64,000 nucleotides of DNA, taken from the NCBI RefSeq assembly GCF_007489285.1, contig NZ_VLIY01000003.1:310001-374000 (forward strand). The letters are read 5' to 3'. The notes beneath the pieces were generated by a model. That model worked only from the letters and a program-made list of their open reading frames with translations. It did not search any database and was not told the DNA's origin. This document shows positions 29,633 to 34,029 of this stretch, one piece after another. This DNA is from Skermania sp. ID1734 (GTDB lineage Bacteria > Actinomycetota > Actinomycetes > Mycobacteriales > Mycobacteriaceae). Made by a program: the position numbers and the translations under genes. The stretch's first letter is position 1. The number at the start of each line of letters is the position of its first letter.

Positions 29633-31209
29633 CGCCGCAACCTCGCCACGAGTCGACCGATGCCGGAGGTATCGGCGATCAGCATCCGCGCCACGGTGCG
29701 CCCGCTCGCGCCGCTGACGCCGCCGCCCGGGTGCGTCGACGCGCCCGTCAGGTACAGCCCGGGCGCGGCGGGAACGCGATAACGAGATAGCTCAGGCAAC
29801 GGTCGCCACATCATCATCTGGTCCAGCGACATCTCGACGTGCATGACATTCCCACCCCGCAGGTCCATCTCGCGTTCCAGATCGGCTGGCGACTGCACGT
29901 ACCGATCCAGCACCGAATCGGCGAACCCCGGGGCGGCAGCGTCCACTTCACTGATGATCCGGTCGGCCTCGGCCGCCGCGTGATCGGCCCAGCTCCGTCC
30001 GCCGGAGAGCCGATAGGGATGCCACTGCGACCACAGCGACAGTTGCTGGCGACCGGCCGGCGCGATCGACGGGTCGAGCTGGGAGAAGCTCATGGCCAGC
30101 ACCGCCGGTCGCGGCGGCAATTCACCCGCGAGCGCGGCGCCGTGCGCCAGGCGCAACTGGCGCCGGTCGCTGACCAACAGTTGCAGCCCGGTCGCCGTTT
30201 CCGTCGGTTCGCCCCCGCGATAACGAGGTAGTGCGCTCGCGGCCACTCGCACGACCATCCCGATTCCGGGGCCCACCCGGATGCGCCGCCGCCACTGGCT
30301 CAGGGTGTCCGCGTCGAATCCGCCGCGCTCCAATAGATCCAGCGTGCTCAGCACGTGGCAGCCGGCGATCACCCGGTCGGCGCGAATTGTTTCGCCGGTC
30401 GTGGTGTGGATCGACCAGCCGTCACCGTGGTGTTCCAGCGCTCGCACGCCGCAACCGGATCGCACGGTACCGCCGTCGGAGCGCAGCCGTGCCACGAGCG
30501 CCTCGGTGAGTGCGCCGCTGCCGCCGACGGCCCGCCCCGGCGGCAAGGTGTGCATCAGCGCGGCGAAGCCGACCATCGGTGCGGTACCGGGCTCGGACAT
30601 CGGTGGGCCGGACTGCGCGCCGAACCAGGCCAGCGCGGCCTTGAGTCGCTCGCTGTCGAAATGCATGTCCAGCAACGCGTCCCCGGACATGAGGAATTGC
30701 CGGGACAGTTCGCTGGCCTGTGCGCTGGGCGCGAGACCCCAGAACGAACGCAGCAGGTGCGGGCCGGTTGCGGCGCCACCGAACGCACGCATGACGCGGG
30801 CGCTGCGGGGGCCCCACACGCCGACGAATCGCTCGTAGGCCTGCGCGTCGCGAGCACCACAGGCCGCTTCGATCGAGGCGCAGGTACGGGCCAGCTCGCG
30901 GTGAAAGACGATTCCGGGCGCGTCGGTGTCGGCGGGCGGGGGAGCGAATGCCCACGGGTCGCAGTCGAGGTAACGCAGTCCGAACCGGTCGAGCTCGAGT
31001 TCTTCGATGATGCCGGTGTGCCGGATCATGATGTGCGCCGACGAGCCGCGGTCCACCCGATAGCCCGGCATCCGCTCGACCGTGGAAACCGCGCCGCCGA
31101 GCACCACGTCGCGCTCGAAGACGGTCACCGAGCGGCCGGCGCGGGCCAGGTAGCACGCCGCGACCAGCGCGTTGTGTCCGGAACCGACGATCGCGACGTC
31201 GACGGTCAC
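29629..31209 (-). CDS. CrtO/CrtI-like FAD-dependent carotenoid oxidoreductase
   Basis: A 526-residue FAD-binding amine oxidase-fold protein. The dinucleotide motif VAIVGSGHNALVAACYLARAG and C-terminal LTGASTHPGGGVSGASGRTVARML place it with CrtO ketolases and their relatives rather than with CrtI. It could ketolate or desaturate a carotenoid; the exact reaction cannot be settled here. GTG 31209 overlaps the acetyltransferase stop (GTGA). Both overlaps show a tightly coupled operon, GNAT - CrtO-like - CruF - LppM - GT2. Confidence 0.85.
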   Translation of the reverse strand: MTVDVAIVGSGHNALVAACYLARAGRSVTVFERDVVLGGAVSTVERMPGYRVDRGSSAHIMIRHTGIIEELELDRFGLRYLDCDPWAFAPPPADTDAPGIVFHRELARTCASIEAACGARDAQAYERFVGVWGPRSARVMRAFGGAATGPHLLRSFWGLAPSAQASELSRQFLMSGDALLDMHFDSERLKAALAWFGAQSGPPMSEPGTAPMVGFAALMHTLPPGRAVGGSGALTEALVARLRSDGGTVRSGCGVRALEHHGDGWSIHTTTGETIRADRVIAGCHVLSTLDLLERGGFDADTLSQWRRRIRVGPGIGMVVRVAASALPRYRGGEPTETATGLQLLVSDRRQLRLAHGAALAGELPPRPAVLAMSFSQLDPSIAPAGRQQLSLWSQWHPYRLSGGRSWADHAAAEADRIISEVDAAAPGFADSVLDRYVQSPADLEREMDLRGGNVMHVEMSLDQMMMWRPLPELSRYRVPAAPGLYLTGASTHPGGGVSGASGRTVARMLIADTSGIGRLVARLRR

Positions 31210-31838
31210 CCTGCTGGCTCCGATCCCGCGGCCAGCGGGAGATCTGCGCCGAGAATCGCGAACGGACGGTTGTCTCCGGCGAACGTGAAGCCGCGCACGA
31301 CGTCGGCAAACCCCAACCGTCGATAGAGTCGCCAGGCCCGATTGTTCTCCCCGGCGACCTCGGGCGTGGAGAGCAAGGCGATGCGCTCGGTGCGCGGTTC
31401 GAGCAGCCTGCGCGCGAGTTGTTCGCCGAGTCCGTTGCCTTGCGCGGCCGGGTGCACGTGCAGTTCGGTCAGCTCGAAGTAGTTCGACAGCGTCTGCTGG
31501 GCGTCCGCTTCGGACCAGCCCGCACGGCGCATGCCGCTGTGTACCTGCTGGTGCCACCATTGATGCGGCGCACCCCGGTAGCCGTAGGTGATCGCGACCA
31601 GCGGCGCGGCCTCCAAGTCCGCGCTCACTCCGGGCGACGTGAGCACCGCACCGACTGCCCGCCACCCCGGCCGAGACATGTGTTCCGCCCACATCGGGGC
31701 CCGGTGGTGCTCGGTCCCGCGCGGGTAATCCATGGCGGCCACATAGATGGCCAGCGCCTCGCGCAGGCGGGCCCGCAACTGCGGGGCGGACAGGTCGATG
31801 ATGACCGGTGCCCGGACAGGTTCGCTGACGACCGCCAT
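31206..31838 (-). CDS. GNAT-family N-acetyltransferase (Rv2170 type)
   Basis: A 210-residue acetyltransferase homologous to Rv2170. The acetyl-CoA-binding region is ELHVHPAAQGNGLGEQLARRLLE (the RxxGxG-like loop here QGNGLG), and the C-terminal GNAT strand is AWRLYRRLGFADVVRGFTF. ATG 31838 follows GAAGGGGTG. It heads the operon with the carotenoid genes CrtO-like and cruF. M. tuberculosis Rv2170 was reported to acetylate isocitrate dehydrogenase, so its link to carotenoids may be only positional. A LexA-like box is about 50-65 bases upstream. Confidence 0.88.
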   Translation of the reverse strand: MAVVSEPVRAPVIIDLSAPQLRARLREALAIYVAAMDYPRGTEHHRAPMWAEHMSRPGWRAVGAVLTSPGVSADLEAAPLVAITYGYRGAPHQWWHQQVHSGMRRAGWSEADAQQTLSNYFELTELHVHPAAQGNGLGEQLARRLLEPRTERIALLSTPEVAGENNRAWRLYRRLGFADVVRGFTFAGDNRPFAILGADLPLAAGSEPAG

Positions 31839-31889
31839 CACCCCTTCGGTGGCCAAAACTTGTCGGTGGGCGCAGATACATTGAAGCCG

Positions 31890-31905
31890 TCGAATAGCTG
31901 TTCGA
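31890..31905. promoter_or_regulatory. Near-consensus mycobacterial LexA (SOS) box
   Basis: TCGAATAGCTGTTCGA fits the mycobacterial SOS box TCGAAC-N4-GTTCGA with one mismatch among the twelve fixed bases (T for C at position 6). It lies in the 120-base divergent region, 52 bases from the GNAT start and 54 bases from the HEPN gene start, where it could repress either or both. Confidence 0.6.
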
Positions 31906-31958
31906 TACAAGCTAGTGCAAATTCGAGCCGTGAGGGTGAAGTAAGGGGGCGGGAGAAG

Positions 31959-32393
31959 ATGACAGGTCGAACCGGGCAGCAACCGAACGGGCAGGCGTGG
32001 GCCTTGTTGCAGCGCGCGGATCGGCTGTTGACGTGCGCGGCGGGCGAGGAGTCCGCACCCGAGCGATTCCGGGCGGCTTATGTGGCGGCACTGCGTGGCG
32101 CCGCGGTCGTGCTGGCCGCGGCCGGACCGGCGGCCGCGCGTAAGCGCACCCGAAACGCCTGGCGGCTGATGGCGGACATCGCGCCGGAATTCCTCATGTG
32201 GTCGCAGTACTTTGCCGACCACTCCGAGACGCGGGCGGCGCTGGAAGCAGGCATCAGCCGACCGGTCACTGCGGCTGCGGCCGACGAGTTCTATGCGAGA
32301 GTGGGGGCGTTCCTGCACGATGTGGAGGACTTCCTGCGGGATTCGGCGCGCTCTGCGTCCGGTGGCGAGGCGTCCCGGAACATCTCCGCCTAG
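31959..32393 (+). CDS. HEPN-family protein (SAV_6107 type)
   Basis: A 144-residue all-helical protein that looks like the SAV_6107 HEPN family of actinobacteria: LLQRADRLLTCAAGEESAPERFRAAYVAALRGAAVVLAAAGPAA and then RTRNAWRLMADIAPEFLMWSQYFADHS. HEPN proteins include RNases and parts of toxin-antitoxin and defence systems; here the classical RxxxxH is not obvious. ATG 31959 has GGGAG seven bases upstream. A LexA-like box stands 54 bases before the start, so it may be induced by DNA damage. Function unknown. Confidence 0.75.
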   Translation: MTGRTGQQPNGQAWALLQRADRLLTCAAGEESAPERFRAAYVAALRGAAVVLAAAGPAAARKRTRNAWRLMADIAPEFLMWSQYFADHSETRAALEAGISRPVTAAAADEFYARVGAFLHDVEDFLRDSARSASGGEASRNISA

Positions 32394-32580: not shown

Positions 32581-33012
32581 GTGCCACTCTCCGAGCACGA
32601 GCAGCGGATGCTCGATCAGATCGAGAGCGCTCTCTATGCTGAGGACCCGAAATTCGCCTCGTCCGTGCGAGGCGGTCGCCTGCGCGGGGCAACCAGCCGA
32701 CGGAGGCTGCAAGCCGCCGCGCTCTTTGTGGTGGGACTGGTGCTCCTGGTCGCCGGCGTTGCGCTGCCGAAGGTCGGCGGTTTCCCGATCATCAGTCTGA
32801 TCGGATTCGTCGTGATGTTCGGGGCAGGCGTTCTGCTGTTGCTCGGCGGTGCTCGCGACAAGGCGCGCCGGGGTATGCCCGGAGCGCGCGGTCACGATTC
32901 ACACGGAAAGCCGGGCAAGCCCGGTAGTGGCCGGGCCCGTGGACCCCGGCGCTCAGGCGGTTTCTCAGCCCGCATGGAAGACCGATTCCGGCGCCGGTTC
33001 GAGCAAGACTGA
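32581..33012 (+). CDS. DUF3040 small membrane protein (Rv2169c type)
   Basis: A 143-residue membrane protein homologous to Rv2169c. The N-terminus MPLSEHEQRMLDQIESALYAEDPKFASSVRGG is nearly the same as in M. tuberculosis. Two membrane helices follow (about residues 45-62 LFVVGLVLLVAGVALP and 65-85 ISLIGFVVMFGAGVLLLL). The C-terminus is basic and Gly/Pro/Ser rich, ending RMEDRFRRRFEQD. GTG 32581 follows AGGAGGGG. It is followed by an intrinsic terminator at 33031 and then the mraZ promoter, so it is separate from the dcw operon. Confidence 0.92.
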   Translation: MPLSEHEQRMLDQIESALYAEDPKFASSVRGGRLRGATSRRRLQAAALFVVGLVLLVAGVALPKVGGFPIISLIGFVVMFGAGVLLLLGGARDKARRGMPGARGHDSHGKPGKPGSGRARGPRRSGGFSARMEDRFRRRFEQD

Positions 33013-33400: not shown

Positions 33401-33434
33401 TCGGAGAGCGATGGAGGCTCGTGGGAGGTGTCGA

Positions 33435-33866
33435 GTGTTTCTCGGTACCTACACGCCAAAGCTCGATGACAAGGGGCGGCTCACGCTGCCGGCCAAGTTT
33501 CGCGACGCACTGGCGGGAGGGTTGATGGTCACCAAGTGGCAGGACCACAGCCTCGCCGTCTACCCGCGGGAGGAATTCGCGAAAGTCGCCAAGCGTGCGG
33601 TGGCGGCATCGCGCACCAATCCCGAGGCTCGGGCATTCGTCCGAAACCTGGGTGCGGGTACCGATGAGCAGCATCCGGACGCGCAGGGACGCATCACGTT
33701 GTCCCCGGCGCACCGGGCGTACGCCAACTTGACCAAGGAATGCGTGGTCATCGGGTCGGTCGACTTCCTAGAAATCTGGGACAAGGCCGCCTGGGAGAGC
33801 TACCTCGCAGAGAACGAAGAGACCTATTCACAGGCCATCGACGAGTCATTGGGCGGCATCGTCTAA
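33435..33866 (+). CDS. mraZ: Transcriptional regulator MraZ
   Basis: A 143-residue DNA-binding protein, first gene of the division and wall cluster, same length as in M. tuberculosis. It forms rings of subunits with two SpoVT/AbrB-like half domains, each having a DxxxR motif: DDKGR (11-15) in [18 protein letters not shown] and DAQGR (near 84-88) in the second half. It regulates its own operon by binding GTGGG repeats (33361-33400). GTG 33435 follows GGGAGG; an in-frame upstream ATG 33411 is not used in relatives. The next gene rsmH is 163 bases downstream. Confidence 0.97.
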
Positions 33867-33891
33867 CCGCCCAGCCGAGTCGAGTGCCGCG

Positions 33892-33955
33892 AGGCCTCTG
33901 CCCGGCGGACCCTGACGCACTTCCCCAGCGCCAGGTTTCGCTCGGGCAGAGACCT
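33892..33955. repeat. 12-bp inverted repeat between mraZ and rsmH
   Basis: AGGCCTCTGCCC (33892-33903) and GGGCAGAGACCT (33944-33955) pair with one mismatch, separated by 40 bases. It may be an attenuation or partial-termination structure that separates mraZ from the rest of the operon. Confidence 0.45.
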
Positions 33956-34029
33956 AGCGGTATTCGTCCATCCAGCGGGCAGCAATGTAGTGCGGCACGA
34001 GCGGCAACTGGAGCAACCGGAGGGCACTG

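Follow-up and report, generated by a model that had tools for sequence, protein, structure and literature searches.

A predicted two-part LexA and PafBC DNA-damage promoter for a HEPN_SAV_6107 gene in Skermania sp. ID1734

In the 64,000-nucleotide stretch of Skermania sp. ID1734 analysed here (contig NZ_VLIY01000003.1, positions 310,001 to 374,000; "the window"), the region upstream of a HEPN_SAV_6107 gene is very likely a two-part DNA-damage promoter, in which a LexA operator is combined with a PafBC-dependent promoter; this confidence covers the regulation and not the role of the protein. What is seen in the sequence comprises both motifs, their orientation, fixed spacing and deep conservation, their joint loss with the gene, and the occurrence in this genome of LexA and RecA alongside two WYL genes in tandem. 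An uncharacterised family found in most sampled genera of the class would thereby gain a predicted place in the DNA-damage response, under dual control and with polymerases as neighbours, a combination that makes an immediate test of HEPN_SAV_6107 function possible. The features concerned are collected in Table 1.

Table 1. Features of the GNAT-HEPN-mraZ region, in window coordinates
Feature	Position	Strand	Basis
GNAT acetyltransferase, divergent, first gene of the carotenoid side	31206..31838	-	PF00583
PafBC-dependent (RecA-independent, P1-type) promoter, predicted, TTGTCGGTG-N8-TACATT	31860..31882	+	exact consensus match, conserved upstream of orthologues
-10 element TACATT	31877..31882	+	part of PafBC motif
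LexA operator (SOS box) TCGAATAGCTGTTCGA, binding predicted	31890..31905	.	consensus match and orthologue conservation
HEPN_SAV_6107 gene, 144 aa, predicted SOS/PafBC-induced product, C-terminus ...SRNISA	31959..32393	+	PF18726, E 7.4e-29
DUF3040 (SCO2097-type) membrane protein, conserved downstream neighbour	32581..33012	+	PF11239, E 5.8e-30
mraZ, start of dcw cluster	33411..33866	+	PF02381, E 3.6e-40

The two promoter elements and their conservation

The GNAT and HEPN genes are divergent, and the region between them (31839-31958, from the GNAT start at 31838 on the minus strand to the HEPN ATG at 31959 on the plus strand) contains the box TCGAATAGCTGTTCGA, which departs from the mycobacterial LexA consensus TCGAAC-N4-GTTCGA only by a C to T change at position 6; the sequence, location and single mismatch reported for it in a first-pass annotation of this DNA were all borne out when the window was re-read. 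Before any comparison with relatives the box would count as only moderately strong evidence: 48 sites with at most one mismatch occur in the whole genome, against 13 for a reversed control pattern, so chance alone would account for roughly one in four of them. That doubt was removed by the conservation of the box in relatives. Among 90 orthologue upstreams from 27 genera, with shuffled upstreams as the null, a LexA box with at most one mismatch was found in 72 (0.2% of shuffled) and one with at most two in 83, 52 of them perfect (3.4% of shuffled), and the 12 specified positions of the box carry 1.90 bits of information, against 0.41 in the upstream flank. The conservation upstream of homologues that the annotation had proposed to check is therefore deep, and a conserved LexA operator stands in the HEPN promoter, as in a LexA/SOS regulon. 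By this sequence comparison TCGAATAGCTGTTCGA is well supported as a real LexA/SOS operator, predicted to bind LexA and to control the HEPN_SAV_6107 gene. A chance near-match without a role could appeal to the roughly 13 in 48 genomic sites of this quality that chance alone would supply; set against conservation, fixed spacing and joint loss with the gene, its probability is close to negligible.

The second element, TTGTCGGTGGGCGCAGATACATT at 31860-31882, was absent from the first-pass annotation, as was the operon context. It is an exact match to tTGTCRgtg-N8-TAnnnT and so has the form of a PafBC regulon promoter: the published RecA-independent promoter consensus is tTGTCRgtg-8 nt-TannnT (PMC5656591), and such promoters are used by PafBC via sigma adaptation (PMC11804915). 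The motif is directional (PMC8151990) and is here oriented towards the HEPN gene. Genome-wide the exact motif occurs 13 times; with up to one mismatch allowed the count is 70, as compared with 10 for the reversed control. A sigma-70 consensus scan gave no match, as expected for a PafBC promoter. Seventy-three of the 90 orthologue upstreams carry the motif with at most two mismatches (1.9% of shuffled), and in the 71 loci that have both elements the start-to-start spacing from PafBC motif to box is 30 bp in 45, 31 in 7, 41 in 13 and 39 in 1. In the window the -10 element ends at 31882 and the LexA box begins 8 nt past its last base; transcription is therefore expected to start at about 31889-31890, the edge of the LexA box, which would thus cover or abut the start site.

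The arrangement is widespread and not uniform. Of the 201 genomes of the family, 180 have a HEPN orthologue, at one copy per genome, and 30 of the 31 genera are represented; no good LexA box was found at HEPN in genera g4, g5, g8 and some others, nor within 3 kb of HEPN in a streptomycete-like family of the class (f19), so LexA control of HEPN is not universal. The PafBC motif is absent in Corynebacterium and several other genera. Corynebacterium keeps weaker LexA boxes: in the named records, a box with at most two mismatches was present in 25 of 45 loci and in none of 45 downstream controls, the loci of genus g3 are similar to these records, and the gene order HEPN > DUF3040 > MraZ is seen in 42 of the 45.

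Regulatory machinery and the choice of target gene

The genome encodes LexA and RecA, and its known SOS genes carry boxes, as judged from a promoter comparison covering selected loci. A lexA gene (TIGR00498, 267.5 bits) adjoins LexA boxes and a divergent YneA-like division suppressor, upstream of which lie a PafBC motif and then several LexA boxes; for recA, an exact PafBC motif is accompanied by an upstream LexA box that has two mismatches; and two adjacent WYL genes at C12:374931-376209 fit a candidate PafB/PafC pair. The RecA domain match itself is split: its two parts share a single 725-aa open frame (L219/L220, G000:C5:112192-114069) and are separated by about 1.07 kb, which looks like an intein.

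Occupancy by LexA and PafBC, induction of HEPN and the start site in the window species are predictions from these data, and the switch would operate as follows. Without damage, a LexA dimer on 31890-31905 would cover the start site and block RNA polymerase. Damage would generate single-stranded DNA, which would lead to RecA-stimulated self-cleavage of LexA and would also activate PafBC, allowing the housekeeping polymerase to use the motif at 31860-31882; with LexA removed and PafBC active, HEPN would be strongly transcribed. The closest known counterpart is the mycobacterial recA promoter region (P1 PafBC and P2 LexA; PMC5656591, PMC11804915), where both damage pathways likewise act on one gene through the same PafBC consensus; there, however, the two promoters are separate, whereas in the window a fixed spacing sets the LexA box right at the start of the PafBC promoter.

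The first-pass annotation had offered, as an alternative, DNA-damage control of the carotenoid genes, and GNAT and HEPN do share the divergent region that holds the box, whose distance from the GNAT start is 51 bp; a single LexA dimer there could block both sides. Against this, the PafBC motif consistently faces HEPN. In the genus g29, moreover, the HEPN gene is absent, GNAT (about 60% identical) is retained next to DUF3040 in 9 genomes, and neither a LexA box nor a PafBC motif is present at any of these 9 GNAT-DUF3040 loci, the best matches having at least 3 mismatches. Since in g29 the box and the PafBC motif have gone along with HEPN while GNAT has stayed, both promoter signals belong with HEPN and not with GNAT or the carotenoids. 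In many relatives outside the family the box is far from GNAT or there is no GNAT match nearby. LexA control of the GNAT-carotenoid operon from this box, alone or in addition, thus found no support and seems most improbable. If g29 is Mycobacterium, the usual model for the damage response in this group, joint loss of the gene and its switch would explain how the gene came to be overlooked.

Carotenoid genes (CrtI/CrtD-like, CruF-like) were also seen near HEPN-polymerase clusters in other families of the class (L213, L214), from which it follows that the HEPN/carotenoid adjacency is old. On the other side of the region, an mraW RNA motif, a known element (RF01746, 63.6 bits), lies at 33876-33975 (+) between mraZ and the next dcw gene.

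Elsewhere in the genome, the sole perfect LexA consensus (G000:C23:97821-97836, L004) lies between genes for a mycothiol transferase (Rv0443-type) and an SDR oxidoreductase. A LexA-like box, TCGAAGGTATGTTCGA, is repeated at G000 C1:287065, C13:79021, C23:19383 and C34:60491; three of these four sites are also matched by the PafBC-pattern scan, and one copy (L006), upstream of a gene with a weak IscB/HNH match, possibly belongs to a 13E12-type repeat.

The HEPN_SAV_6107 protein and its putative role

The protein scores 100.6 bits against PF18726, for which the cut-off is 27.2, and so belongs to the family. Its AlphaFold model has a pLDDT of 91.4, and the closest solved folds are HEPN domains: 2hsb (Z 14.0, 2.7 A over 119 residues), 4nqf (13.3) and the sacsin HEPN (13.1); no HEPN relative came out of a profile search against PDB sequences. 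Family and fold are those of HEPN-M (SAV_6107) of Anantharaman et al., 2013 (PMC3710099), in whose table entry no gene-neighbourhood or SOS link is given.

The damage-inducible HEPN effector suggested by the first-pass annotation holds up as to LexA control, and hence as to an inducible gene, through the conserved box; the implied RNase does not. The HEPN fold would suit a damage-induced RNase toxin or defence effector, and the window protein has its own R-X5-H (R114, H120) in the last helix. An RX4-6H in that helix, however, is found in only 15 of 49 orthologues, too few for a catalytic HEPN RNase; Tyr41, Ala44 and Trp68 are invariant in these 49, none of them conserves a His, and the near-invariant R92 lacks a conserved His partner at the distance such a motif would require. 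PMC3710099 likewise lists this family without a conserved RX4-6H motif. Nor is there an MNT nucleotidyltransferase next to HEPN, where the annotated neighbours are GNAT, DUF3040 and MraZ, that could act as antitoxin as in an MNT-HEPN pair, and the gene, found once per genome in almost the whole family, is unlike mobile toxins. We regard an RNase toxin or defence effector as improbable.

The role best supported, which we put forward tentatively, is that of an SOS accessory factor, helical and without catalytic activity, that would serve translesion synthesis or damage tolerance. It is favoured because in many families the gene belongs to a LexA-controlled cluster that also encodes DNA polymerase IV and a DnaE-type polymerase (see below). 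The sequences suggest that such a factor would be short-lived: many orthologues (76 of 111, and every one of the 14 in g3) have Ala as their last residue, in motifs such as LAA, LVA and DVA, and this C-terminus may be an ssrA-like degron conferring rapid proteolysis, a signal confounded by the 20% Ala content of the orthologues overall.

Under the same regulation the protein could instead be a growth or cell-division checkpoint factor, like DivS, ChiZ/Rv2719c or YneA, which are small and damage-induced and whose promoter logic has a parallel in this genome, where the clearest other promoter with PafBC motif and several LexA boxes, among the loci scanned, is that of the YneA-like suppressor beside lexA. 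The HEPN gene stands beside mraZ and the dcw cluster, a possible C-terminal degron would fit, and in C. glutamicum no gene of the unknown-function group is induced more strongly than divS and cg2381 (PMC5055667). DivS, Rv2719c and YneA nevertheless differ from HEPN_SAV_6107 in fold and neighbours; these division suppressors are of the membrane/LysM kind, the modelled protein is a soluble helical HEPN bundle, and in the wider class HEPN is found with polymerases, not division genes. A checkpoint function is accordingly a possible but rather unlikely alternative to the translesion or tolerance factor.

The C. glutamicum gene cg2381 is very probably the HEPN_SAV_6107 orthologue, matched by position and family: mraZ there is cg2378, the order HEPN > DUF3040 > MraZ is the usual one in the genus, and a PF18726 match was found in C. 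glutamicum. According to PMC5055667 (citing Jochmann 2009), cg2381 is a LexA regulon member of unknown function, and after ciprofloxacin its M value is 3.86, equal to that of recA, while mraZ falls (PMC5055667). The literature searched makes no link between cg2381 and the HEPN_SAV_6107 family, PafBC or the polymerase cluster.

Class-wide polymerase cluster and leader hairpin

Of 118 genomes sampled across the class, 86 have PF18726. In a sample of 20 class-level loci, one per family, 18 have a LexA box, at most one mismatch from the consensus, no more than 900 bp upstream of HEPN, and 20 such boxes fall in the 18 kb upstream of HEPN, as against 3 in the remaining 250 kb. About half of the loci comprise DUF6504, HEPN, a DnaE-type polymerase, a methyltransferase, a Y-family polymerase (NCBIfam DNA polymerase IV) and DUF3040, and the others a subset; the family of the window retains HEPN, DUF3040 and mraZ. 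Given its spread and order, the longer cluster is probably ancestral and cotranscribed. We infer that its DnaE-type polymerase is DnaE2, for which the DnaE2 and DnaE1 NCBIfam models score alike and both below cut-off. DUF6504 has no mention in the literature searched, though an earlier one may exist. The association makes co-regulation likely and is by itself no proof of a translesion role. In the Streptomyces venezuelae LexA regulon, dnaE2-dinP (PMC9380542) similarly joins an SOS-induced DnaE2 with DNA polymerase IV; HEPN, SAV_6107 and DUF3040 are not mentioned in its main text, and, as noted above, the streptomycete-like family lacks a box at HEPN.

In 19 genera the HEPN leader, from LexA box to HEPN start, can form a long hairpin with an invariant GAGGGAAGC loop (e.g. 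L032, L045, L092, L116), for which RNAalifold gave 15 pairs, 13 of them with two-sided changes. A covariance model built on it does not match the genome of the window. It matches 72 of 121 genomes, almost always once, and wherever coordinates are comparable the strong matches immediately precede the HEPN gene. No Rfam match was found at the HEPN leader, and the hairpin is absent from Rfam; it is a candidate new cis-regulatory RNA. HEPN_SAV_6107 may then be, as a proposal that we advance with some reserve, an unrecognised core part of an ancient actinobacterial SOS translesion operon with the six-gene content given above, to which the GAGGGAAGC-loop leader hairpin would add a post-transcriptional layer in many genera of the window's family.
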